Below are positions 23,142 to 35,658 of a stretch of DNA of 64,000 bases, in pieces. How positions within the stretch are numbered: position 1 is the stretch's first letter; every line of letters begins with the position of its first letter. The translations under genes and the position numbers were made by a program. Location: the NCBI RefSeq assembly GCF_900112245.1, contig NZ_FOYX01000001.1, positions 1,537,856 to 1,601,855 on the forward strand. The letters are read 5' to 3'. A model generated the notes under the pieces. The model searched no databases and was not told where the DNA came from. It saw nothing but the letters and a program-made list of their open reading frames with translations. Origin of the DNA: Maribacter stanieri (GTDB taxonomy: Bacteria; Bacteroidota; Bacteroidia; Flavobacteriales; Flavobacteriaceae).

Positions 23142-23771
23142 ATGAAAAAGACCTTTGTTCTTGTTGTCTTATTTGTGCTTCCTATAGTAGCATATTTATT
23201 CTTTGCTTCTGGGGTTACAAATTTTGGTAAACTAGCACAGCTAACAAAAGATGTGCATGAAATAGATTTTTCTGATCAAGCTCAGTTGAAGGGTAAAATA
23301 ACCGTTCTAGGTTTTTTAGGTTCAGATGTGGAAGGTAGAAAGGGTAATGCCTTTAACTTGAATCAAAAAATATACAAAAGGTTTTACGAGTTTGGGGATT
23401 TTCAATTTGTAATGTTAATTTCTAAAGATCAAGAAAGTGAAGTAGAAGCTCTCAAAACTGAACTAGCTACTTTAGCTGATAATGACAAATGGAATTTTGT
23501 TTATGCAAGTGATGAGCAAATAAATTCTATTTTCAAAAGCCTCAAAACTGATATTGAGCTGGATGCTAAATATAGTACGCCCTATGTTTTTATCGTAGAT
23601 AAAGATTTAACTCTTAGAGGAAGGTCTAATGATGAGGATGATGGAACAAAATATGGTTTTAATTCAAATTCTGTTGCAGATTTGAACAATAAAATGGTAG
23701 ACGATGTTAAAATTATTTTAGCAGAATACCGACTTGCTTTAAAAAAGAATAATCCTGATAGCGCTAAATAA
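23142..23771 (+). CDS. Membrane-anchored, Sco-like thioredoxin-fold protein lacking cysteines
   Basis: A 209-residue protein with one N-terminal membrane anchor (about 4-24). The rest has the layout of a Sco/thioredoxin fold: strand GKITVLGFLG (about 51-60), a helix and strand FQFVMLIS, and a late STPYVFIVDKD followed by LRGRS, which mirrors the VDKDGYLRSR end of the adjacent Sco protein. There is no cysteine anywhere in it, so it cannot bind copper or do disulfide exchange the way Sco does. Its stop overlaps the Sco ATG by one base (TAATG), implying coupled expression and a role in oxidase assembly. I infer a degenerate Sco paralogue; no function is established. Confidence 0.7.
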   Translation: MKKTFVLVVLFVLPIVAYLFFASGVTNFGKLAQLTKDVHEIDFSDQAQLKGKITVLGFLGSDVEGRKGNAFNLNQKIYKRFYEFGDFQFVMLISKDQESEVEALKTELATLADNDKWNFVYASDEQINSIFKSLKTDIELDAKYSTPYVFIVDKDLTLRGRSNDEDDGTKYGFNSNSVADLNNKMVDDVKIILAEYRLALKKNNPDSAK

Positions 23772-24502
23772 TGAATAAGAAATATACATACGTTTGGGTT
23801 TCTTTGATTGTTCTAATTTTTGGAATTATTGTAGTACCAAGAATAGTAGATACGGTATCATCTGGTTCTATAGTTGAAAATGATCGTTTAAATAATTCTA
23901 ACGCTACCAGTAGTCAGAAATTAGCTTATATTTTATTAGATGGTAAGCGACGAAAAGTACCTTCATTTGAATTTATTAATCAAGATAGTGTGTTGGTTTC
24001 TGATAAAGACTATCTAGGAAAAGTCTATGTGGTAGATTTCTTTTTTACAAGATGTCCTAGTATTTGTCCTGTAATGACTACCAATTTGGTAAGTGTGCAA
24101 AATCATTTTATAGGTGAAAAGGATTTTGCAATTGCTTCTTTTAGTATTACTCCTGATTTTGATACACCTGCAGTTCTAAGGGTGTATGTTGAAAAGTATG
24201 AAGTTAATAATGAAAATTGGAATCTAATGACGGGTGATCATGATTCTATTTATCAATTAGCAAATGCGGGTTTCAATATTTTCGCAGCGGAAATGCCAGA
24301 TGTACCTGGCGGATTTGAACACTCAGGGTTGTTTGCCTTAGTAGATAAAGATGGTTATTTACGTTCAAGAATAGATGAGTTTGGAAACCCTATCGTTTAT
24401 TATCGTGGAGCTATTTTAGAAGAAAAAGGAGCAAATGATCAAGGGGAAACCGAAGAGATAGGTATTTTAAAAGAGGATATTAAAAAATTGTTGGAAGAAT
24501 AA
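23771..24502 (+). CDS. SCO1/SenC copper chaperone for cytochrome oxidase
   Basis: A 243-residue membrane-anchored thioredoxin-fold protein (anchor about 7-25) that delivers copper to the CuA site of the oxidase. The metal-binding CxxxC is in FFFTRCPSICPVM (C95, C99), and the third ligand is H184 in GGFEHSGLF. ITPDFDTP and VDKDGYLRS are further family motifs. It is coupled to the cysteine-free paralogue upstream and lies 10 bases before the DUF420 gene, all inside the oxidase assembly cluster. Confidence 0.93.
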   Translation: MNKKYTYVWVSLIVLIFGIIVVPRIVDTVSSGSIVENDRLNNSNATSSQKLAYILLDGKRRKVPSFEFINQDSVLVSDKDYLGKVYVVDFFFTRCPSICPVMTTNLVSVQNHFIGEKDFAIASFSITPDFDTPAVLRVYVEKYEVNNENWNLMTGDHDSIYQLANAGFNIFAAEMPDVPGGFEHSGLFALVDKDGYLRSRIDEFGNPIVYYRGAILEEKGANDQGETEEIGILKEDIKKLLEE

Positions 24503-24512
24503 GAGTTTAGGT

Positions 24513-25046
24513 ATGCAAGGGAATGTAAAGGACGAGCGGAAATTTAATAAGTTAATAGCGGTGGTATCTATAATCATCCCTATTGTTGTGGCAATTCTCT
24601 TTGGAGTAAAATTACCTAATGTAGAACCTTTGTCGTTTTTACCTCCTATTTATGCTGCTATAAATGGGCTTACAGCTGTGTTGTTATTAGTTGCGGTTTG
24701 GGCTATAAAAAATGGAAAAGAAAAACTACATCAGAATTTAATGACCACCAATATAGTATTGTCTTTATTGTTTCTAGTGATGTATATCGCTTATCATATG
24801 ACTTCTGATTCTACGAGTTATGGTGGTGAAGGTGTAGTACGGTATGTTTACTTCTTTATTCTAATTACTCATATTGTCTTATCAATAGCATTAATTCCTT
24901 TAGTGCTAAGAACTTATGCAATGGCATATTTAAAGAAATTTGAAGATCACAGGGCGTTGGCTAAATATACTTTTCCTGTTTGGCTTTATGTTGCGGTAAC
25001 CGGTGTTGTAGTTTATTTAATGATATCTCCCTATTATGTATACTAA
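24513..25046 (+). CDS. DUF420 membrane protein, likely oxidase assembly factor (CtaM-like)
   Basis: A 177-residue protein with five hydrophobic helices. It has the DUF420 pattern of early PxxxAxxNGxxA (LPPIYAAINGLTAVLL) and conserved HQNLMTTN, HMTSDSTSYGG, ILITHIVLSI and HRALAKYTFPVWLYVAVTGVVVY segments; several histidines lie in or near the helices. DUF420 proteins accompany heme-copper oxidase genes, and in Bacillus and Staphylococcus CtaM is needed for heme A oxidase assembly. It overlaps the following small gene by 11 bases. Confidence 0.87.
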   Translation: MQGNVKDERKFNKLIAVVSIIIPIVVAILFGVKLPNVEPLSFLPPIYAAINGLTAVLLLVAVWAIKNGKEKLHQNLMTTNIVLSLLFLVMYIAYHMTSDSTSYGGEGVVRYVYFFILITHIVLSIALIPLVLRTYAMAYLKKFEDHRALAKYTFPVWLYVAVTGVVVYLMISPYYVY

Positions 25047-25371: not shown

Positions 25372-26619
25372 ATGTTCGACTTAGAACGTTGGCAAGAAAT
25401 ATTCGATACTATTCGCAAGAATAAGTTACGAACGTTTTTGACTGGACTATCAGTCGCTTCAGGAATTTTCATTCTAGTCATTTTATTAGGTTTTGGTCAA
25501 GGCATGCAAAATGGTATAGCCAAAGAATTTGAACAAGATGCAGCTACGAGTGTTTGGGTTTGGCCGGGAGTAACAACTAAAGAGTTTAAGGGTATGAACC
25601 CTGGTAGACCTATTCAATTCAGAAATGAAAACTTTGAAATTGCCAATGTATTATTTGAAGACCAAATAGAAAACAAATCCCCTCGGTTATTCGTAAGAGA
25701 TGTTTTTGTTAATTACGGTAGTGAATCTTTGGCTTATAATGTTCAAGGAGTATCTGGCGATTTTCAGTTTATTGAAAATGAGTTTATGACCGAAGGTAGA
25801 TTCTTAAATCTACAAGACATAGATTCTAAGGCTAAGGTGGCTATTATCAGTAATAAGATAAATAGAGAAGTATTTCAAGAACTAGATAGCCCTATTGGGG
25901 AGTTTTTAGACCTATCTGGCATTCCTTTTAAAATTGTTGGTATATATGGCGATATAGGAGGAGAACGTGAAGAAGATCGTATCTATATTCCTGTTACTAC
26001 CGCACAACAAGTTTTTAACGGTGCAGATCATTTAAATAATCTTTCCTACACATTACCTCCTGTAGAAGATTTTGAAACTGCAGTTGCGCAATCCATTAAA
26101 TTTAAAAATGACCTAAAGTCGTACTTGCAGAAAGTGCATACGGTTGCACCAGATGATACAAGTGCCATACAAGTATATAACCCTTTGGAAGAGGCTAAAC
26201 GTTTTTATGCCTTAATGGGTGGTATTAAGTTCTTCTTTTGGTTTGTAGGTGTGTGTACCATAATTGCCGGTATTGTAGGGGTAAGTAATATAATGCTCAT
26301 TGTGGTTAAAGAACGTACAAGAGAAATAGGTATTCGTAAAGCTTTAGGGGCAAAGCCATGGTCTATTGTTGGTATGATTTTGCACGAAGCCATTTTTATA
26401 ACTGCCATTGCAGGTTTTTCAGGTCTTATTTTAAGTATGGGGCTGTTGGAAATTGTAGGTCCACATGTAGAAGTGGATTATGTGTTGAATCCTTCTGTAA
26501 ACTTTAATGTAGCAATAACAACGGTATTCGTATTAATTTTTGCTGGAGCCATAGCAGGATTTTTCCCAGCTTGGCGAGCAGCAAAAATTCATGTTATAGA
26601 AGCGCTTAAAGACGAATAA
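25372..26619 (+). CDS. MacB/FtsX-type ABC exporter permease, copy 1
   Basis: A 415-residue permease with the MacB topology but no fused ATPase: one N-terminal helix (about 20-42, SVASGIFILVILLGFG), a periplasmic domain of about 220 residues, and three C-terminal helices (about 288-408) with the FtsX signature ISNIMLIVVKERTREIGIRKALGA (positions about 300-325). It opens with RWQEIFDTIRKNKLRTFLTG, the usual start of this family. Together with a partner permease and the ATPase at 29143, it should power export of a substrate through the membrane-fusion protein and TolC. It closely resembles the copy at 29837 (WQEI, NKLRTFLTG and GMQNG in the same places), so the two arose by duplication. Confidence 0.9.
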   Translation: MFDLERWQEIFDTIRKNKLRTFLTGLSVASGIFILVILLGFGQGMQNGIAKEFEQDAATSVWVWPGVTTKEFKGMNPGRPIQFRNENFEIANVLFEDQIENKSPRLFVRDVFVNYGSESLAYNVQGVSGDFQFIENEFMTEGRFLNLQDIDSKAKVAIISNKINREVFQELDSPIGEFLDLSGIPFKIVGIYGDIGGEREEDRIYIPVTTAQQVFNGADHLNNLSYTLPPVEDFETAVAQSIKFKNDLKSYLQKVHTVAPDDTSAIQVYNPLEEAKRFYALMGGIKFFFWFVGVCTIIAGIVGVSNIMLIVVKERTREIGIRKALGAKPWSIVGMILHEAIFITAIAGFSGLILSMGLLEIVGPHVEVDYVLNPSVNFNVAITTVFVLIFAGAIAGFFPAWRAAKIHVIEALKDE

Positions 26620-26645
26620 ATTTAAAGAATAATTAATAAATAGCC

Positions 26646-27902
26646 ATGTTCAATAGAGACCGTTGGAAAGAAATATTAGAAGTTTTGTCTAGTAATGTTT
26701 TTAGGACATTGGCTACTTCTTTTGGGGTGGGTTGGGGCATATTTATTCTAATTATACTTCTTGCTGCGGGTAAAGGTTTGGAGAATGGAATTCGTGCAGA
26801 TTTTGGTGACATAGCTACGAATACCATGTTCATGTGGTCAAGAAATACAACAATATCATACAAGGGGTTGCCTAAGGGAAGACGTTTTAGTTTCAAGCTT
26901 GAAGATGTACAGGCTATCAATGATAAGGTTCCTAACCTACGTTTTATTTCCCCAAGAAATCAGCTAGGTGGTTTTGGGAGTGGTAATAATGTGGTACGTG
27001 GTCTAAAAACAGGTGCGTTTAATGTTTATGGCGATTATCCTGAAATAATAAGGCAAGAACCAATGACCATTACTTCTGGCAGGTTTGTTAATCAAAATGA
27101 TATTGAAGACAAAAGAAAAATAGCAGTCATTGGAGATGGTGTGCAAAATGAATTGTACGACCAGGGTGAAACAGTAATAGGGACTTATATAAAAATTCAA
27201 GGTGTGAATTTTATGGTGGTTGGTACGTATCAGAAAAAAGATAGTGGCGGCGGGGAAGAGGGTCAAAAAGAAATCTATGTTCCGTTTACAGCTTTTTCTC
27301 AGGCTTTTAATATGGGTAACGATGTTGGTTGGATGGCAATTACTGCCAATGATGGTAGTTCTATTTCTGAGCTAAAAGAGAAAATTGTTGGGGTGGTCAA
27401 AGAGAATAGAAAAATTCATCCAGACGATAAACGTGCCGTTGGGTATTTTGATTTGTATGAACAGTTTAATCGTGTAGAGAGTTTGTTCGGTGCACTAAGA
27501 TGGGTAGCTTATTTTGTAGGTGTACTCGTTTTGTTATCCGGTATTATTGGGGTGAGCAACATTATGCTAATTGTCATTAAAGAACGGACTAAAGAAATTG
27601 GTATTCGAAGGGCTTTAGGTGAAGCGCCTTGGTCAATTAAAAAGCAAATATTGATGGAGTCTATTTTTCTAACCATTATTTCAGGAATGATCGGGATAAT
27701 TTTTGGAGCGGCATTTATTTACGGCGTAAATGCAGTACTTGATTCCGTAGGTCCGGTAGATATGTTTATAAACCCAAGTGTAAGCTTAGGTGTGGTAGTG
27801 AGTGCGTTGGTCATTTTAATATTCTCTGGATTGTTAGCGGGGTTTATACCTGCCCAGAGTGCCATCAAAATAAGACCAATTGAAGCTTTAAGAACAGAAT
27901 AA
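26646..27902 (+). CDS. MacB/FtsX-type ABC exporter permease, copy 2
   Basis: A 418-residue permease with the same topology as its neighbour: an N-terminal helix (about 23-45), a periplasmic domain, and three C-terminal helices with SNIMLIVIKERTKEIGIRRALGE. It starts FNRDRWKEILEVLSSNVFRTLATS. It lies 26 bases after the first permease and 30 before the membrane-fusion protein. Sequence blocks such as YKGLPKGRRFSFKLED are matched by YKGFERGRRIQFKLED in the permease at 31068, marking the second pair as a duplicate of the first pair. Confidence 0.9.
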   Translation: MFNRDRWKEILEVLSSNVFRTLATSFGVGWGIFILIILLAAGKGLENGIRADFGDIATNTMFMWSRNTTISYKGLPKGRRFSFKLEDVQAINDKVPNLRFISPRNQLGGFGSGNNVVRGLKTGAFNVYGDYPEIIRQEPMTITSGRFVNQNDIEDKRKIAVIGDGVQNELYDQGETVIGTYIKIQGVNFMVVGTYQKKDSGGGEEGQKEIYVPFTAFSQAFNMGNDVGWMAITANDGSSISELKEKIVGVVKENRKIHPDDKRAVGYFDLYEQFNRVESLFGALRWVAYFVGVLVLLSGIIGVSNIMLIVIKERTKEIGIRRALGEAPWSIKKQILMESIFLTIISGMIGIIFGAAFIYGVNAVLDSVGPVDMFINPSVSLGVVVSALVILIFSGLLAGFIPAQSAIKIRPIEALRTE

Positions 27903-27932
27903 AATTATCATCAAAATATAACCAATCAAAAA

Positions 27933-29051
27933 ATGAAAAAGTCAACAACAATTATTATCCTGCTTATTATAGTGCTTGCCTTTGGCGGCTCTATGTTTTA
28001 TTTGTATTCAAAAAATGCAGAAGACCCAGTGGTGTATCAAACAGAAGAACCTTCTAAGCAGACCATTATTAAAAAAACCATGGCTACGGGTAGTATTCTA
28101 CCATTAGAAGAAGTGCTTATAAAACCAAATATATCTGGAGTTATAGAGAAAATTTTTGTGGAAGGCGGCGACTATGTAAAATCTGGCGATTTGCTTTGTA
28201 CCATTAAAGTAGTTCCAAATCTAAGCTCTTTAAATGATGCCAGGAATAATATTAATGAAGCTAAAATAAACCTAGATGATCAATTACGTAATTTAGATCG
28301 TCAAAAAGGATTGTTTACCAAAGGGGTAATTTCTAAAGTAGATTTAGAGCGTGCACAATTAAGCTATGACCAGTCTAAGCAATCTTATGCAGCCGCCAAT
28401 AAAAGATATGATATTGTAAAAACGGGTACTACCTCTGGTTTTGGTAATGCTGCAAATACACAAATTAGAGCTACTGTTAGTGGTATGGTCTTAGAAGTCC
28501 CTGTTGAAGTAGGTAATCAGGTCATAGAAAGTAACAATTTTAATGAAGGCACAACCATTGCAGCTATAGCCGATGTTGATAAAATGATTTTTGAAGGTAA
28601 GGTTGATGAATCTGAAGTTGGAAAAATCAAAGAAAATCTTCCGCTAGAAATTACCGTTGGTGCCATTGAAGATAAAGTGTTCGATGCTGTATTAGATTAT
28701 ATAGCGCCTAAAGGAAATGAAGAAAATGGAGCTATACAGTTTGAAATAAAAGGGACGCTTAAGAAACAAGACTCCGTATTCATTAGAGCAGGTTTAAGTG
28801 CAAATGCATCTATAATTTTAGCTCGTGCAGATAGCGTTTTAGCTGTGAAAGAAGCTTTGGTGCAATTCGATGATAAAACTAAAAAACCATTCGTAGAAAT
28901 TGCAACTGGTGATCAAGAATTTGAAAGAAGGGATATTGAGTTGGGGATAAGTGACGGTATTCATGTACAGATAAAATCTGGAGTAACAGAGGGGGATAGA
29001 ATAAAGGTATGGAATGAGGTAAAGCCCGATGAGCTTGCTGAGAATGAATAA
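27933..29051 (+). CDS. Membrane-fusion (HlyD/MacA-type) periplasmic adaptor, copy 1
   Basis: A 372-residue adaptor with an N-terminal membrane anchor (about 5-26), a barrel-sandwich hybrid domain (about 45-90 and 165-200), a helical hairpin (about 95-150, LNDARNNINEAK to QSKQSYAAANKRYD) and a beta-barrel plus proximal domain to the end. It links the inner-membrane permeases to TolC. The copy encoded at 32368 shares long identical blocks, including PVEVG(N/D)QVIESNNFN and KMIFEG. No lipobox is present. Confidence 0.9.
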   Translation: MKKSTTIIILLIIVLAFGGSMFYLYSKNAEDPVVYQTEEPSKQTIIKKTMATGSILPLEEVLIKPNISGVIEKIFVEGGDYVKSGDLLCTIKVVPNLSSLNDARNNINEAKINLDDQLRNLDRQKGLFTKGVISKVDLERAQLSYDQSKQSYAAANKRYDIVKTGTTSGFGNAANTQIRATVSGMVLEVPVEVGNQVIESNNFNEGTTIAAIADVDKMIFEGKVDESEVGKIKENLPLEITVGAIEDKVFDAVLDYIAPKGNEENGAIQFEIKGTLKKQDSVFIRAGLSANASIILARADSVLAVKEALVQFDDKTKKPFVEIATGDQEFERRDIELGISDGIHVQIKSGVTEGDRIKVWNEVKPDELAENE

Positions 29052-29142
29052 AGTAAAAAAATAAATCAATTGATGTAACAAATAATACACTAGGTAGTCT
29101 AATGAATAGGCAGTGTAAAAATTGTTCAAAACAACAACCAAC

Positions 29143-29844
29143 ATGATTCAAATCAAAGATCTTCACAAGTCCTATAAAATGGGCAAGAATTCACTTCACG
29201 TTCTTAAAGGAATAAATTTTAATGTTGAGGAGGGCGAATTAGTAGCTATTATGGGCTCTTCTGGTTCTGGTAAATCTACCTTACTAAATATTTTAGGAAT
29301 GTTGGATAGTTCTGATTCTGGAGAGTATATTTTAGATAATGTGCCTATTAAGGATTTAAATGAAACAAAAGCCGCGCGATATAGAAATAAGTTCTTAGGT
29401 TTTGTTTTTCAATCATTCAACCTTATCAATTATAAAAGTGCAGCCGAAAATGTTGCATTACCGCTGTACTACCAAAAAGTACCAAGAAAGGAACGTCAAG
29501 AAAAAGCACTTAAATATTTAGAACAAGTAGGTCTTAAAGAATGGGCAGGTCATTTACCTAGCGAGCTTTCTGGTGGTCAAAAACAACGTGTCGCAATAGC
29601 AAGAGCATTGGCGGCAGAGCCTAAAGTTTTATTGGCAGATGAACCAACAGGTGCTTTAGACAGTAAAACTTCTTATGAGGTTATGGACTTGATTCAGAAA
29701 ATCAATGATGCTGGTAATACTATTTTGATAGTTACTCACGAACCTGATATTGCCGATATGTGTAAGCGTATTGTTCATTTAAAGGATGGGGTAATTATAG
29801 AGGATAAGAAAATAGAACAAGTAAGAGCCGAACAATATGTTTGA
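29143..29844 (+). CDS. MacB/LolD-type ABC exporter ATPase
   Basis: A 233-residue ATP-binding protein with Walker A GSSGSGKST, Q-loop GFVFQSFNLI, signature LSGGQKQRVAIARAL, Walker B VLLADEPTGALDS and the H-loop VTHEPD. These are features of the macrolide/lipoprotein exporter branch. I take the ATG at 29143 (MIQIKDLHKSY); a TTG seven codons earlier would add an unlikely leader. It is the only ATPase for four permeases in this cluster, sitting between the two halves, and overlaps the next permease by 8 bases. Confidence 0.94.
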   Translation: MIQIKDLHKSYKMGKNSLHVLKGINFNVEEGELVAIMGSSGSGKSTLLNILGMLDSSDSGEYILDNVPIKDLNETKAARYRNKFLGFVFQSFNLINYKSAAENVALPLYYQKVPRKERQEKALKYLEQVGLKEWAGHLPSELSGGQKQRVAIARALAAEPKVLLADEPTGALDSKTSYEVMDLIQKINDAGNTILIVTHEPDIADMCKRIVHLKDGVIIEDKKIEQVRAEQYV

Positions 29845-31066
29845 TAGAGACATTTGGCAAGAAATATATCACAGTATAAGCAATAATAAGCTTAGAACTT
29901 TTCTTACCGGGTTTTCGGTAGGTTGGGGTATATTTATTTTAGTATTGCTGTTGGCATCTGTAAAAGGAATGCAGAATGGTTTTACACTACAATTTAGCGA
30001 TGATGCTACGAACTCTATTTTCGTAAGAACTGGAACTACATCATTAGCCTATGGTGGATTTGAAGCTGGACGGAGAATTCAAATGACGAATGATGATATT
30101 GAATACATCAAAAGAAGTTTTCCAAATGATGTAGAATATATAAGTCCTAGGGTATACCAAAATACATCTGCACGTTATAAGAGCGAAACAGGTAGTTATA
30201 ACATTCAAGCTGTATATCCTGATCACCAGGCAATTGAAAAGACTATTGTAAATAAAGGGCGTTTCATTAATACCAACGATCTTTTAAATGCCTCTAAAGT
30301 TGCCGTTATAGGTAGAAAAGTAGAAGAGGATTTGTTTAAGAATGAGGACGCCATTGGCAAATTCGTTGAATTCAATGGATTGCCTTTTAGGGTCATTGGT
30401 GTTTTTACAGATGATGGGGATGATAACGCGGAGCGCAATATCTATGCGCCAACAAGTACGTATCAAAAGATGTACGGTCAAACAAATCATATTGATCAAA
30501 TTGCATTGACCTATAATCCTAATTATGACTTAACAGAAGCACTTGCTTTTTCAGATAGATTAGAAAATGTTTTTAGAAGGCGTTTTAAAATTGCTCCTAA
30601 GGATCAATCAGGAATTAGAATCTTTAACTACGCAGAGGTTTTTGAAGATATCAGCAACTTTACAGGTGGTTTAGATATCGCAGTAATTATAGTGGGACTT
30701 TTAATATTACTATCTGGTATTGTCGGTATCGGTAATATTATGGTGTTTATCATTAAAGAGCGTACTAAAGAAATAGGAGTTCGTAAAGCTTTGGGTGCTG
30801 AGCCATGGTCCATTATTAAATTGGTTTTGTTTGAATCGGTTTTTATTACGGCTTTATCCGGATTTATAGGGTTGGGCATTGCAACGGGATTACTGGCAAT
30901 TGTTGGACCTAATATTAAAACTGGTGCATTTGCAAATCCTTCGGTAAGTATGTCAATTGTGGTAACGGCTACAATTATATTAATAGTGGCTGGTGTATTG
31001 GCAGGATTAATTCCTGCAATGAAAGCGGCAAGAGTGAAACCAATTGTAGCATTAAGCGATAAATAA
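29837..31066 (+). CDS. MacB/FtsX-type ABC exporter permease, copy 3
   Basis: A 409-residue permease with the family layout: opening FDRDIWQEIYHSISNNKLRTFLTG, a first helix at about 22-44, a periplasmic domain, and three C-terminal helices carrying GNIMVFIIKERTKEIGVRKALGA. It overlaps the ATPase by 8 bases and is followed after a single base by the fourth permease. It is the counterpart of the copy at 25372. No catalytic residues are expected because the ATPase is a separate protein. Confidence 0.9.
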   Translation: MFDRDIWQEIYHSISNNKLRTFLTGFSVGWGIFILVLLLASVKGMQNGFTLQFSDDATNSIFVRTGTTSLAYGGFEAGRRIQMTNDDIEYIKRSFPNDVEYISPRVYQNTSARYKSETGSYNIQAVYPDHQAIEKTIVNKGRFINTNDLLNASKVAVIGRKVEEDLFKNEDAIGKFVEFNGLPFRVIGVFTDDGDDNAERNIYAPTSTYQKMYGQTNHIDQIALTYNPNYDLTEALAFSDRLENVFRRRFKIAPKDQSGIRIFNYAEVFEDISNFTGGLDIAVIIVGLLILLSGIVGIGNIMVFIIKERTKEIGVRKALGAEPWSIIKLVLFESVFITALSGFIGLGIATGLLAIVGPNIKTGAFANPSVSMSIVVTATIILIVAGVLAGLIPAMKAARVKPIVALSDK

Positions 31067-31067
31067 T

Positions 31068-32324
31068 ATGTGGATATTAGATAGGGATTTATGGTCTGAG
31101 ATTTTTGCCACATTGGGTAAGAACTTGTTTCGAACGTTTTTAACAATGTTAGGGGTTATCATTGCTATGATAATTTTAGTATTGCTATTAGGTGGTGCAA
31201 ACGGAATGAGTAATGGTTTTCAAAAGATATTTGCGGGTACAGCTTCTAATAGTTTATTTGTGTGGAGCCAAAGCACATCAGAACCATATAAGGGCTTTGA
31301 AAGAGGGCGTAGAATTCAATTTAAATTAGAAGACGCAACTATACTTAAAGAACAGATACCTGAAATTGAAGTGCTAGCGCCAAGAATAGAACTTGGTAGT
31401 CATAGGGGCGTGGTTACTGTTTATAGAAATGGTTTAACTAGTGGTTCTGCGGTATATGGAGATTATCCCAATATAGATGAAATCATGAAAAAGAAACTGG
31501 TAGAAGGTCGGTTTCTTAATGAAAATGATATGACCGAGTCTAAGAAGGTTTGTGTTATTGGGGAAGAGACGTATAAGCTACTATTTGAAAAAGGGGAAAA
31601 GGCAATAGGTGAAGATGTTCGTATAAACGGTGTATTCTTTAATATTGTTGGTATTTATAAGCCTAATCAAAACATTAACATTGATGGTGAAAATTCCGTC
31701 TATATTCCTTTTTCAACATTTCAAAAAGCATTTGGGTCAGGTGATAGAATGGGGTGGATGGCAATTTCGGTAAAATCAGATGCAAAAGTGCCAGTCGTTG
31801 AAAGTCAAATAAAACGCTTATTGAAGAATAAGTACGATATCAACCCAATAGACGAACGCGCTATTGGTAGTTTCGATATGTCTGAAGTGTTTAATAATGT
31901 CAAAGCTTTTACGGGAGTACTGCAAGGTGTTTCATTTTTTGTAGGCATACTTACGTTATTGGCAGGTGTAATTGCCATTAGTAATATTCTATTGATTACA
32001 GTAAAAGAACGTACAAAAGAAATAGGCATAAGACGTGCCTTGGGGGCAACTCCAAAAGTGGTAAAAAGACAAATAGTTTTAGAATCTATAGTAATTACTG
32101 TGTTTGCCGGTTTTGTCGGTTTTGCAATCGCAGTAGGGTTTTTGGCAATAGCAAATAACTTAATAGGTGATAATAGCGATATGCCATTTTATAATTTAAT
32201 GATAAGCATACCACAATTTTTAGTGTCTTTTATTCTAATGGTAGGTCTTAGTGTATTAATAGGATTAATACCGGCAAATAGGGCTATTAGAATAAAACCA
32301 ATTGACGCATTAAGAGAAGAGTAA
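31068..32324 (+). CDS. MacB/FtsX-type ABC exporter permease, copy 4
   Basis: A 418-residue permease, counterpart of the copy at 26646. It opens WILDRDLWSEIFATLGKNLFRTFLT, has a first helix (about 24-46) and three C-terminal helices with SNILLITVKERTKEIGIRRALGA. The ATG at 31068 starts one base after the stop of copy 3. The periplasmic domain (about 50-280) is the part that differs most among the four and would carry any substrate or partner specificity. Confidence 0.9.
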   Translation: MWILDRDLWSEIFATLGKNLFRTFLTMLGVIIAMIILVLLLGGANGMSNGFQKIFAGTASNSLFVWSQSTSEPYKGFERGRRIQFKLEDATILKEQIPEIEVLAPRIELGSHRGVVTVYRNGLTSGSAVYGDYPNIDEIMKKKLVEGRFLNENDMTESKKVCVIGEETYKLLFEKGEKAIGEDVRINGVFFNIVGIYKPNQNINIDGENSVYIPFSTFQKAFGSGDRMGWMAISVKSDAKVPVVESQIKRLLKNKYDINPIDERAIGSFDMSEVFNNVKAFTGVLQGVSFFVGILTLLAGVIAISNILLITVKERTKEIGIRRALGATPKVVKRQIVLESIVITVFAGFVGFAIAVGFLAIANNLIGDNSDMPFYNLMISIPQFLVSFILMVGLSVLIGLIPANRAIRIKPIDALREE

Positions 32325-32367
32325 CAGACCAAACAACAAAGAATAAATAACAATCAAATAGTTGAGC

Positions 32368-33492
32368 ATGAACAAGTATGTAAAGTACGTATTAATAGGA
32401 ATAGCAGTTTTAGGAATACTGGCTGCAGTAGTCTATTTTTTAAAGAAGAATAGCACTCCTTTAAAAACATATGAAACTGAAACAGTTGTAAAAAGAGATA
32501 TTACCAATAAGGTAGTTGTTACCGGAAAGGTAATTCCGCAAGACGAAATTGAAATTAAACCTCAAATTTCAGGTATCATCCAAAAAGTATATTTAGAAGA
32601 GGGTGTTCAAGTAAAAGCTGGGGATTTAATAGCAACTATTAAAGTAGTACCTAATGAGCAATCTCTAAATCAGGCTAGAGGTAGGGTTAACAATGCTAAA
32701 ATCTCTTTAAGCAATACTAAAATTGAATATGACCGTAACAAAACACTTTTTGATAAGGGTGTAATATCCAGTCAAGATTTCAATGCCTTGCAACTAAGAT
32801 TTGACCAGGCAACGCAAGAATTGCAAAATGCTCAAGCAGACTATCAAATTATTAGAGTAGGTTCTGCTGGTGGTTCTTCTAGTGCCAATACAAATATTAG
32901 GGCTACGGTGACTGGTACGTTGTTAGAAATTCCTGTAGAAGTCGGTGATCAGGTTATTGAAAGTAACAACTTTAACGATGGTACTACAATCGCCTTTATT
33001 GCTGATATGTCTAAAATGATTTTTGAAGGCGAAGTTGATGAGGCTGAAGTTGGTAAATTAAAAGTAGGGATGCCTTTGGAAATTAGCATGGGTGCTTTAC
33101 AAGATGAAAAATTCAATGCTAAATTAAAATTCATTGCTCCTAAAGGTGTTGAAGAAGAAGGCGCTGTACAATTCAAAATTGAAGGTGATATGGTAGTTTC
33201 TGATAGTACTAATATTAGAGCTGGTTATAGTGCGAATGCATCTATTGTATTAGAAGAAAAGAAAGATGTGCTTTCAATTAAAGAAGCCTTATTGCAGTTT
33301 GATAAAGAAACCAATAAACCTTACGTTGAAGTAGAAACTGGTGAAAACGAGTTTGAAAAGAGAGAGCTTGTTCTTGGTGTAAGTGATGGTATAGATGTTG
33401 AAATTGTTTCAGGAATTGATGAGAATTCCAAAATAAAAATATGGAACAAGTTAGAGGCCAAAAGTGAAGATAACGGTCCAAACGAAGATTAA
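32368..33492 (+). CDS. Membrane-fusion (HlyD/MacA-type) periplasmic adaptor, copy 2
   Basis: A 374-residue adaptor with a membrane anchor (about 6-25) and the same domain order as copy 1: hybrid domain halves, helical hairpin (about 95-150) and beta-barrel. The ATG at 32368 is preferred over a TTG two codons earlier. It precedes the TolC gene by 66 bases. The C-terminal tail is acidic (KSEDNGPNED). Lying directly before TolC it is likely the adaptor expressed in step with the outer-membrane channel. Confidence 0.9.
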   Translation: MNKYVKYVLIGIAVLGILAAVVYFLKKNSTPLKTYETETVVKRDITNKVVVTGKVIPQDEIEIKPQISGIIQKVYLEEGVQVKAGDLIATIKVVPNEQSLNQARGRVNNAKISLSNTKIEYDRNKTLFDKGVISSQDFNALQLRFDQATQELQNAQADYQIIRVGSAGGSSSANTNIRATVTGTLLEIPVEVGDQVIESNNFNDGTTIAFIADMSKMIFEGEVDEAEVGKLKVGMPLEISMGALQDEKFNAKLKFIAPKGVEEEGAVQFKIEGDMVVSDSTNIRAGYSANASIVLEEKKDVLSIKEALLQFDKETNKPYVEVETGENEFEKRELVLGVSDGIDVEIVSGIDENSKIKIWNKLEAKSEDNGPNED

Positions 33493-33558
33493 GAAAATCA
33501 ATCAAATCAAAAAACGAATCGATCAACCTTTAGTTGGGTTGGTTTAAAAAAGAATAAA

Positions 33559-34899
33559 ATGAAAGTAAAAATCACAGGATTACTACTGATATTTTCTGTT
33601 GTAGTAGGTATGGCACAACAAAAGAAATGGACACTAGAAGAGTGTGTATATTATGCTGTAGAGAACAACCTTACCGTTAAGCAGTTTGAGTTGGATTTAG
33701 AAAATGCTGCATTAGATAAATCTGATGCAATAGGAGCATTGTTGCCAAGTTTAAATAGTTCATTAAGTGCATCTGCAAATACGGGACTTGCATTGGATCC
33801 TACCACCAACAATTTGGTTTCGGCAACTATTTTTTCTGCATCAGGAAGTATGACGTCATCTGTTACTCTTTTTGATGGTCTTCAAAATTATAATAGAATT
33901 GAAAGGGCTAAATTAACTGCAATTAGTAGTCAGTATAGATTAGATGATAGTAAAGATGATATTAAGTTAAGTGTAGCAAATGCATACTTAAACGTATTAG
34001 CAAATAAAGAATCTTTAAAAGTTTTTAAAGCGCAATTAGCTATTACAGAACAAGATTTAAAGCGTACTCAAGACTTGGTAGATTCTGGTGTTTTACCTAG
34101 CGGAGATTTATTACAGATAGAAGCTACAGCTGCAACTCAAGAACAGCAAATGATAAATGCCCAGAATTTAATCTTGATTTCAAAAATTAGTTTAGCACAA
34201 TTACTGAGTATAACGGACTATGAAAATTTTGATATCGCAGAAGAAGAGTTCGATATTCCTCCATCGGATATATTGAATAATTCTGCCAAGGTTATTTTTG
34301 ATAAAGCGTTGACTTTTAGAAATGATATACAATTTGCCTTGACAGGGGTAGAATTGGCTCAAAAGGACTTAGAAATTGCAAAAGGTGCCAAGTACCCATC
34401 TGTAGGTGCGTTTATTAATTATAATACTCGATATTCTGATCAAAACAATGATCCATTTACAGGAGAAGCAATTCCATTTAAAGATCAATTATATATCAAT
34501 GATGGTATATCTTACGGGGCACAAATGAGTATTCCGATTTTTAACGGATGGAGTGTTAGAAATAATATAAAACGGTCGCAAATTAGTATTGACATAGCGC
34601 AGATCGAGTATGAAAGAACAAAGTTGCAGTTAGAGACGGATGTTAACCAAGCCTATGTGAATGTGACCAATTTTTTCAAGGCATTTCAGGCCGCGGAAAA
34701 AACATTGGAAGCCAGAACGCTTGCTTATCAGTATTCAAAAGAACGTTACGATGTAGGATTAATGAATGCATTTGAATTCAGCCAATCACAATCACTTGTA
34801 GATAATGCTGAAGCAGATTTAATTCGTGCTAAGTATGATTATATCTTTAGACTAAAAATATTGGAATTTTATTTTGGGATTCCTATTTCATTAGAATAG
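33559..34899 (+). CDS. TolC-family outer-membrane efflux protein
   Basis: A 446-residue protein with a signal peptide (about 1-19, ending VGMAQ) and the two long coiled-coil OEP repeats of TolC. It begins WTLEECVYYAVENNLTVKQ, the standard opening of bacteroidetal TolC proteins, and has the second-half equivalent PIFNGWSVRNNIKRSQ. It should form the outer-membrane trimer through which the cluster exports its substrate. It is the only outer-membrane component for the two adaptors and is followed by a strong terminator, closing the cluster. Confidence 0.93.
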   Translation: MKVKITGLLLIFSVVVGMAQQKKWTLEECVYYAVENNLTVKQFELDLENAALDKSDAIGALLPSLNSSLSASANTGLALDPTTNNLVSATIFSASGSMTSSVTLFDGLQNYNRIERAKLTAISSQYRLDDSKDDIKLSVANAYLNVLANKESLKVFKAQLAITEQDLKRTQDLVDSGVLPSGDLLQIEATAATQEQQMINAQNLILISKISLAQLLSITDYENFDIAEEEFDIPPSDILNNSAKVIFDKALTFRNDIQFALTGVELAQKDLEIAKGAKYPSVGAFINYNTRYSDQNNDPFTGEAIPFKDQLYINDGISYGAQMSIPIFNGWSVRNNIKRSQISIDIAQIEYERTKLQLETDVNQAYVNVTNFFKAFQAAEKTLEARTLAYQYSKERYDVGLMNAFEFSQSQSLVDNAEADLIRAKYDYIFRLKILEFYFGIPISLE

Positions 34900-34980: not shown

Positions 34981-35658
34981 ATGGGCTTAATATTGAATTT
35001 AGAAACATCATCTACAAATTGTTCGGTTTGCGTCGCTAAGGACGGAGAAATTCTTGCGATTAGGGAATTAAATTCAGCGAACTATTCGCATGCAGAAAAA
35101 CTTCATATTTTTATAGAAGAAGTAATGCAGGAGGCATCTGTTCAAATGCAAGATTTAGAAGCCGTAGCGGTTAGTAAAGGTCCGGGTTCTTATACTGGGT
35201 TAAGAATTGGAGTTTCAGCGGCTAAGGGCTTATGTTACGCTTTAGGCATTCCATTGATTTCTGTTGCTACATTAAAAAGCATGGCATCTCAAATTCAGAT
35301 TAAAGAAAATGAAGTTTTGATTCCGGTGTTGGATGCTAGACGTATGGAGGTGTATTCTGCAGTGTTCGATGCTGAATTAAGTGAGATTAGAGAAACAAAG
35401 GCAGAGATAATAGAAGAGAGCTCTTTTCAAGAATATATAAATGCTAAGCACGTTCATTTTTTAGGAAGTGGAGCGGAGAAGATAAAAGAGCTTTTTCCGG
35501 ATGATACAATAACATATCATTGCGAGATTGTACCTTCTGCAAAAGAAATGGCTTTCATTTCTTCAAATAAGTATCAACTAAATGATTTTGAAGATGTAGC
35601 TTATTTTGAGCCTTATTATTTGAAAGACTTTGTGCTTCAAACTAAGAAATCTAAATAA
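34981..35658 (+). CDS. tsaB: tRNA threonylcarbamoyladenosine biosynthesis protein TsaB
   Basis: TsaB is the partner of TsaD in forming t6A37 on ANN-decoding tRNAs. The 225-residue sequence has the ASKHA-fold opening LNLETSSTNCSVCVA and the conserved block VAVSKGPGSYTGLRIGVSAAKGL (about 61-83), with DARRMEVYSA near 119-128. Length is normal for the family. It lies between two terminators, so it is a single-gene unit. Confidence 0.94.
   Translation: MGLILNLETSSTNCSVCVAKDGEILAIRELNSANYSHAEKLHIFIEEVMQEASVQMQDLEAVAVSKGPGSYTGLRIGVSAAKGLCYALGIPLISVATLKSMASQIQIKENEVLIPVLDARRMEVYSAVFDAELSEIRETKAEIIEESSFQEYINAKHVHFLGSGAEKIKELFPDDTITYHCEIVPSAKEMAFISSNKYQLNDFEDVAYFEPYYLKDFVLQTKKSK

Follow-up and report, generated by a model that had tools for sequence, protein, structure and literature searches.

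A stand-alone ATPase between two MacB-like permease pairs in Maribacter stanieri may drive two exporter cassettes

According to the available text of the sources, VarACDEF of Vibrio cholerae consists of two separate MacB-like permeases, a separate ATPase, a membrane-fusion protein and an outer-membrane channel (PMC5595328), and LolCDE is a heterodimer of two permeases with four transmembrane (TM) helices each, joined by a separate ATPase (PMC5985334, PMC8277102). HgdB-HgdC of Anabaena are an adaptor and a MacB-like permease without an ATPase gene, and DevA or another ATPase was suggested to drive them (PMC6161253). MsmX of Bacillus subtilis is one ATPase common to several permease pairs, which are importers (PMC7658222). 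Here, a gene cluster of Maribacter stanieri is compared with these systems. It lies in a stretch of 64,000 nucleotides (assembly GCF_900112245.1, contig NZ_FOYX01000001.1, positions 1,537,856 to 1,601,855 of the forward strand), which is called the window and whose numbering is used below.

Eight plus-strand open reading frames (ORFs) at 25372-34899 follow one another in the order P1, P2, A1, N, P3, P4, A2 and T. The ORFs and their Pfam matches agree with the order permease, permease, adaptor, ATPase, permease, permease, adaptor, TolC given in a preliminary description made from the sequence alone. The window contains a complete operon of one version, B (N-P3-P4-A2-T), preceded by a half of another version, A (P1-P2-A1), that has neither N nor T. 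We propose, with a probability of about two thirds, that these are two MacB/LolCDE-like (type VII ATP-binding cassette, ABC) exporters run from one motor, N, with P1-P2/A1 and P3-P4/A2 as heterodimeric cassettes. The predicted sharing of the ATPase is well supported by the comparison of gene content, descent and selection.

In the proposed mechanism, an N dimer would dock on P1-P2 or P3-P4, moving between the pairs or being divided among them. ATP binding and hydrolysis by N would shift the periplasmic domains of the permeases (mechanotransmission), and a periplasmic or outer-leaflet substrate would be pushed through an adaptor hexamer into the TolC channel. Binding and transport by the cluster are modelled on type VII transporters, and the driving of P1-P2 by N, the heterodimeric state, the stoichiometry and the use of T or another TolC by A1 are presumed in the same way. 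The genes of the cluster are as follows (aa, amino acids).

25372..26619, + strand: P1, 'a'-type MacB-like permease of the A pair, 415 aa; MacB_PCD and FtsX domains, permease tree, MacB fold (AlphaFold2/Foldseek)
26646..27902, + strand: P2, 'b'-type MacB-like permease of the A pair, 418 aa; MacB_PCD and FtsX domains, permease tree, MacB fold
27933..29051, + strand: A1, MacA/HlyD-type periplasmic adaptor of the A half, 372 aa; TIGR01730 above cut-off, Pfam HlyD_D23 and HlyD_3
29143..29844, + strand: N, stand-alone ABC ATPase, 233 aa from ATG 29143; PF00005 (ABC_tran), in the tree with most type-B ATPases
29837..31066, + strand: P3, 'a'-type permease of the B pair, 409 aa; MacB_PCD and FtsX domains, permease tree
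31068..32324, + strand: P4, 'b'-type permease of the B pair, 418 aa; MacB_PCD and FtsX domains, permease tree
32368..33492, + strand: A2, MacA/HlyD-type adaptor of the B half, 374 aa from ATG 32368; TIGR01730 above cut-off, Pfam HlyD_D23/HlyD_3
33559..34899, + strand: T, TolC-family outer-membrane channel, 446 aa; PF02321 (OEP)

The likely starts of N and A2 are ATG 29143 and ATG 32368; the longest ORFs would open at TTG 29122 and TTG 32362, respectively. The 3' end of N overlaps the start of P3 by 8 bases, and N overlaps the next permease gene to the same extent in 19 of 20 complete-A loci, in 26 of 31 with eight genes and in 22 of 37 of type B.

Permease pairs and ATPases per genome

A second ATPase of the same subfamily would speak against the sharing that the preliminary description had suggested. 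None of the N clade was present among the 42 ATPase matches listed for the source genome, and the next best match was 54% identical to N and adjoins a permease, an adaptor and a TolC of its own in a T-A-N-P operon (L001). Two permease pairs therefore stand against one ATPase of the matching clade. The same excess of pairs was found in relatives with an N-less A half, within the search cut-offs.

Type-A P2 was detected in 138 of 349 family genomes (cut-off 1e-150). N lies directly before P1 in 78 of these genomes and directly after A1, as in the window, in 48, where it follows P2 by 1.2-1.5 kb; the eight-gene order of the 48 was judged by coordinates alone for 36 and by reading the sequence for 12. 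In nine genomes N does not adjoin the A pair, being on another contig in five and 21 kb to 1.7 Mb away on the same contig in four. Eight of the nine proved real by sequence, with no N beside the A half (for G037 the contig ends and the distance is given only as more than about 2.7 kb), and the ninth, G364, is a complete A operon cut by a contig end. The last three genomes (G195, G184 and G180) had no N at the cut-off, and N was then found there in pieces: G195 belongs with complete A, G184 (L109) has N and P3-P4 about 7 kb past A1, and G180 has its A half apart from N. In total, 58 A halves are N-less and 80 are N-bearing.

N is present in all 58 genomes with an N-less A half, in pieces in two of them. 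Among the ATPases listed in 137 of the 138 genomes no second N of the same clade was observed, and the other listed ATPases were at most 56% identical. In G026, where the halves lie on different contigs, the ATPases reaching 1e-45 were N (91%) and one of 41%, and no more. These counts indicate that N-less A halves persist whether the only N found in the genome lies beside them or elsewhere.

Descent and chromosomal place of the two halves

The ordinary form of the system was examined in a first family sample of 60 genomes searched with P4, of which 57 gave a match (G023 and G024 distantly) and 55 carry a permease pair. The commonest form is a five-gene unit with one pair only, N-Pa-Pb-A-T, in 46 of the 55. 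Two old versions of it exist: A, with P1/P2/A1, and B, with P3/P4/A2. The type A operon was found in 17 genomes and type B in 29, some of the latter without an adjoining T, while the eight-gene order is seen in six genomes and the halves are separated in three. A complete A and a complete B do not occur together in any of the 55 genomes. An extra adaptor-like gene follows T in 16 of the 17 complete-A loci of this sample (e.g. L022, L024 and L029); it is 25-29% identical to A1 or A2 and is absent from the window cluster.

Four permease matches were obtained in 32 of 36 species of the genus, the source species included, and the assemblies of the remaining four, among them G072, are 64-82% complete. 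Among 80 named relatives (Maribacter, Muricauda/Allomuricauda/Flagellimonas, Zobellia, Euzebyella, Eudoraea, Croceivirga, Saonia and others) the eight-gene order is whole in 70, so the recurrence in other Flavobacteria that the preliminary description proposed as a check was observed. It is cut by a contig end in six, and four have P1-P2-A1 only (one 3.3-kb contig, G026, G136 and G154). The genus, family and named-relative sets overlap, and their counts are not independent. By its recurrence in the genus and the named relatives, the eight-gene arrangement is not due to chance. Outside the family, 12 of the 34 matching genomes in a 296-genome phylum sample have a P2 relative; a pair and an adaptor were visible in the eight whose surroundings were retrieved, in loci too short to show N beside every pair.

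In the permease tree (154 rows, genus thinned, with a long outgroup branch), P1 and P3 join on one side (support 98), and P2 (100) and P4 (96) form clades on the other; window-type P3 and the other P3s do not form a single supported clade. This split indicates that the a and b permeases diverged before the A and B versions did. Consistently, the second-best BLAST matches pair P1 with P3, P2 with P4 and A1 with A2, as had been noticed from shared sequence blocks. The a/b split and the joint inheritance also favour the matched permease pairs of the preliminary description.

The history of the A half was followed in a joined P1-P2-A1 tree of 46 hand-picked loci, with nine complete-A loci as the root. 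In this tree the 27 N-less rows are all gathered into a single clade nested in complete A (100/100), and the same nesting was obtained in the permease tree with a different root (88). The separated halves are scattered at several places within the N-less clade, and no regain of N was seen in the 46-locus tree. These trees indicate that the A half descends from a complete N-P1-P2-A1-T operon that lost N once, with several later separations; T is now gone too. The A half has no motor in 58 of 138 genomes, and the 46-locus tree shows a single loss; both findings favour the shared ATPase.

The eight-gene N groups with most B-type N (87 in one tree, 83/88 in another), and an approximately unbiased (AU) test gave p 0.003 against its joining complete-A N to the exclusion of B. 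The remaining N is thus, by its place in the trees, of B descent. Within the N-less A halves, those of G025, G287, G347, G363 and G180 group as a single clade (100/99), whereas the RpoB tree sets G025, the one of the five tested, outside, with G002 and G033 (100). The N-less A cassette of these five genomes was probably transferred between distant lineages without N. In the RpoB tree (30 hand-picked genomes), five B-only genomes fall among complete-A ones while their N groups with B. A family-wide model in which N is vertical and only the permeases are swapped was not supported by the RpoB tree set against the N tree. At family depth, either N moves with its operon, or both operons are ancestral and one was lost, as far as the trees indicate.

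The chromosomal place was compared by means of two flanking markers, both assigned by Pfam.

23771..25046, + strand: left flank, SCO1/SenC and DUF420 genes, conserved-locus marker
34981..35658, + strand: right flank, conserved-locus marker, a gene that we take to be TsaB-like (its Pfam match is TsaD)

Both flanks are present at all 30 fetched eight-gene loci. Among 20 complete-A loci, SCO1 was found at 20, DUF420 at 19 and the TsaB-like gene at 19, and among 29 B-only loci the left flank (SCO1 and DUF420) was found at 22 and the right flank at 22. Most of the fetched A, B and eight-gene forms occupy one chromosomal place. In separated halves, P1-P2-A1 retains the left flank in G026, G037, G136, G154 and G184, and N-P3-P4-A2-T retains the right flank in G026, G136 and G154, the three that were read far enough. 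The later breaks therefore fell between A1 and N. The A cassettes of G025, G287, G347, G363 and G180 (L097) sit at a different site, that of G180 being without the ancestral flanks.

Among 20 fetched congeners, P3-P4 are 93-99% identical to the window in six and 42-48% in fourteen. Four of the fourteen, close congeners (L067-L069 and L082), have P1, P2 and A1 that are 90-96% identical to the window, whereas their P3-P4 (42-46%), A2 (70-72%) and T (60-65%) are of a diverged B version. Because P3-P4-A2-T differs while P1-P2-A1 stays, P1-P2 is independent of any one particular P3-P4. The strong DNA similarity between the window and these four loci ends about 100 bases into P3. Their N is 92-94% identical to that of the window, compared with 98-100% in the six congeners that share its B block, and the start of the exchanged block may thus lie within N. 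A tentative reading, to which we give slightly less than even odds, is that the DUF420-tsaB interval in Flavobacteriaceae is an exchange site for exporter cassettes, which lineages gain, lose and swap, and in which one conserved ATPase can serve one or two cassettes, whichever are present. If so, N would be a multitask motor of type VII exporters and a counterpart of MsmX.

Protein families and selection

Each of P1, P2, P3 and P4 has MacB_PCD and FtsX domains by Pfam. The four permeases are homologous (identity to P1: P3 41%, P2 36%, P4 34%), with sequence blocks common to both halves, and the coupling motif KERT.EIG.R.ALG is present in all four. Models of P1 and P2 only were made with AlphaFold2 (mean predicted local distance difference test, pLDDT, 81 and 80; predicted template modelling score, pTM, 0.60 and 0.58). 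In Foldseek both matched MacB chains first and then other type VII transporters including LolE. The P2 model has a helix at H18-54, then a periplasmic domain and then three long helices. A type VII (MacB/LolCE/FtsX) permease has four TM helices, with a periplasmic core domain inserted after TM1 and before TM2, and an FtsX domain at its C-terminus, and the domains of P1-P4 and the fold of the P1 and P2 models place them in this group. They fall outside the MacB family proper (PRK10535), for which the permeases score 110-126 and N scores 245 versus a cut-off of 966; unlike MacB with its N-terminal ATPase fusion, ATPase and permeases are separate ORFs here. They also fall outside LolC/LolE (TIGR02212; 18.8-40.9 bits versus a cut-off of 362). 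At the level of the genes, heterodimeric pairs would agree with the organisation of two permeases and a separate ATPase and with the a/b split.

The window ORFs are free of frame damage. The ratio of nonsynonymous to synonymous substitution rates (dN/dS) of P1, P2 and A1 was 0.015-0.047 against eight congeners (two more were not estimable), and that of P3, P4 and A2 was slightly lower, 0.009-0.026, against the five congeners with the same B block and estimable dS; these values are rough, as many dS are above 1. They indicate that the N-less A half is under purifying selection, and neither half is decaying in the window; decay of one half had been named in the preliminary description as a possible refutation.

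Eleven alignment columns differ between complete and N-less A at a level of at least 80% on each side, two in P1 and nine in P2. They include P2 A326E at the end of the coupling region, and P2 36 and 412 (Val to Ile), which match P4. At position 326, all 19 complete-A P2 and all 62 P4 have Ala, and 82% of 34 N-less P2 have Glu. This change could mark an adaptation to the borrowed ATPase, and the eleven columns are taken as leads only.

Elsewhere in the source genome, C9:362-396 kb (L002 and L003) has ten consecutive minus-strand MacB_PCD/FtsX permeases of about 780-880 aa, accompanied by only two ATPases, one adaptor and a single TolC. This is a second cluster with many permeases and few motors.

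Alternative explanations and comparison with known systems

Several observations weigh against the driving of both pairs by N. Both searches for N were bounded: one scored 35 of up to 62 candidates per genome and listed those at E <=1e-70, and the other listed those at E <=1e-80. In G195, whose assembly is 76% complete, two N fragments overlap, and a second N is possible there. In G180 and G184, N reads as overlapping or broken pieces, through either a faulty assembly or genuine damage. The B-type N do not make up a single clade, since six B rows branch outside it. No convergence of the P1/P2 coupling region on P3/P4 after the partner switch was found. No Bacteroidota-type promoter was detected in the intergenic gaps of the cluster even with one mismatch, and co-expression is for this reason only assumed; the strict consensus pattern had one match, within the TolC gene.

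P1-P2-A1 could instead be driven by another ATPase (LolD, an FtsE-like one or the 54% one of the MacAB-TolC operon), with N driving P3-P4 only. Six further ATPases of the source genome, 41-54% identical to N (E 6e-75 to 5e-44), could do so in principle. Furthermore, neither half has the ancestral flanks in G025, G287, G347 and G363 (L014, L093, L091 and L095), nor does the A half of G180, and N in these five genomes is only 56-70% identical to that of the window. The 54-56% ATPase is, however, listed in only 9 of the 58 N-less genomes, which ruled out this C7-operon ATPase as their constant partner, and in the source genome it has partners of its own. N was found in all 58, directly after A1 in 48. 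We consider this alternative unlikely. Mixing of the four permeases into one exporter, either in a single larger assembly or through exchange of dimer partners (P1-P4, P3-P2), would suit the homology of the a and b types across the halves and the coupling motif shared by all four. It fits poorly with the single pair of 46 of the 55 first-sample genomes (17 complete A, 29 B), with P3-P4 that vary between congeners while P1-P2 are constant, and with P1-P2-A1 found away from B, and is given a low probability.

That P1-P2-A1 needs no ATPase and is a regulatory or structural remnant modulating the B pump would agree with the loss of N and T. Such a remnant is improbable, as the coupling motif is intact, selection is nearly as strong as on P3, P4 and A2, and the A half persists away from B. 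A first half that is a recent, decaying duplicate of the second would explain the common sequence blocks, and G072, a congener with an 81% complete assembly, has six stops in P2, genuine or introduced in assembly. This explanation was ruled out by the separation of A and B versions across the family, the intact frames and low dN/dS in the window and the recurrence of four permeases in the genus. The sharing of N by two cassettes is thus the reading that we prefer.

The use of one TolC by both halves, also suggested in the preliminary description, was not borne out. The source genome has 11 TolC-family proteins (one within a 1454-aa frame), and the B operon has no adjoining TolC in four separated-half genomes (G025, G287, G347 and G363). 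These findings leave a common channel weakly supported.

A single loss of the motor is kept in 58 of 138 genomes, and the eight of these whose halves are not adjacent repeat it as a natural experiment, so that the specificity of a type VII ATPase for its permeases is directly testable. The conserved locus with its varying B block offers a system for finding the determinants of substrate choice. Where annotation assumes one ATPase for each exporter, N-less halves could be labelled incomplete. For sugar importers the sharing of a motor is established, and for the MacB type the only suggestion found in print, in the available text, concerns HgdBC (PMC6161253). No published account of two cassettes with one motor was found in the literature searched, which mostly did not cover subscription papers, so that absence from print is not shown. 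As far as that literature shows, the arrangement, its single origin and its persistence after the halves part are new.

The preliminary description had held that the cluster would be an unusual modular exporter. This is overstated in one respect, since a separate ATPase with two MacB-like permeases is common (46 of 55) and known from VarACDEF and LolCDE. The parts of VarACDEF are those of one five-gene unit here, N-P3-P4-A2-T and most single-pair relatives included, which is a likeness of parts and not of descent; as far as the available text describes it, VarACDEF has one pair and one ATPase and no second, ATPase-less half (PMC5595328). HgdBC resembles the A half of the window in lacking an ATPase gene; according to the available text, it has one permease, is cyanobacterial, and its ATPase is only suggested (PMC6161253). 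MacAB-TolC is similar in the P1/P2 fold and in the adaptor and TolC families, and differs in that MacB is a homodimer with a fused ATPase and one permease gene. LolCDE likewise has two permeases and a separate ATPase, whereas the permeases of the cluster stay below the LolC/LolE cut-off. The LolCDE complex is not known to include an adaptor or a TolC. The importers served by MsmX are of type I and have another fold. MsmX is a parallel to N as a proposed shared motor, and it serves sugar importers, which, as the available text describes, work in the opposite direction (PMC7658222).

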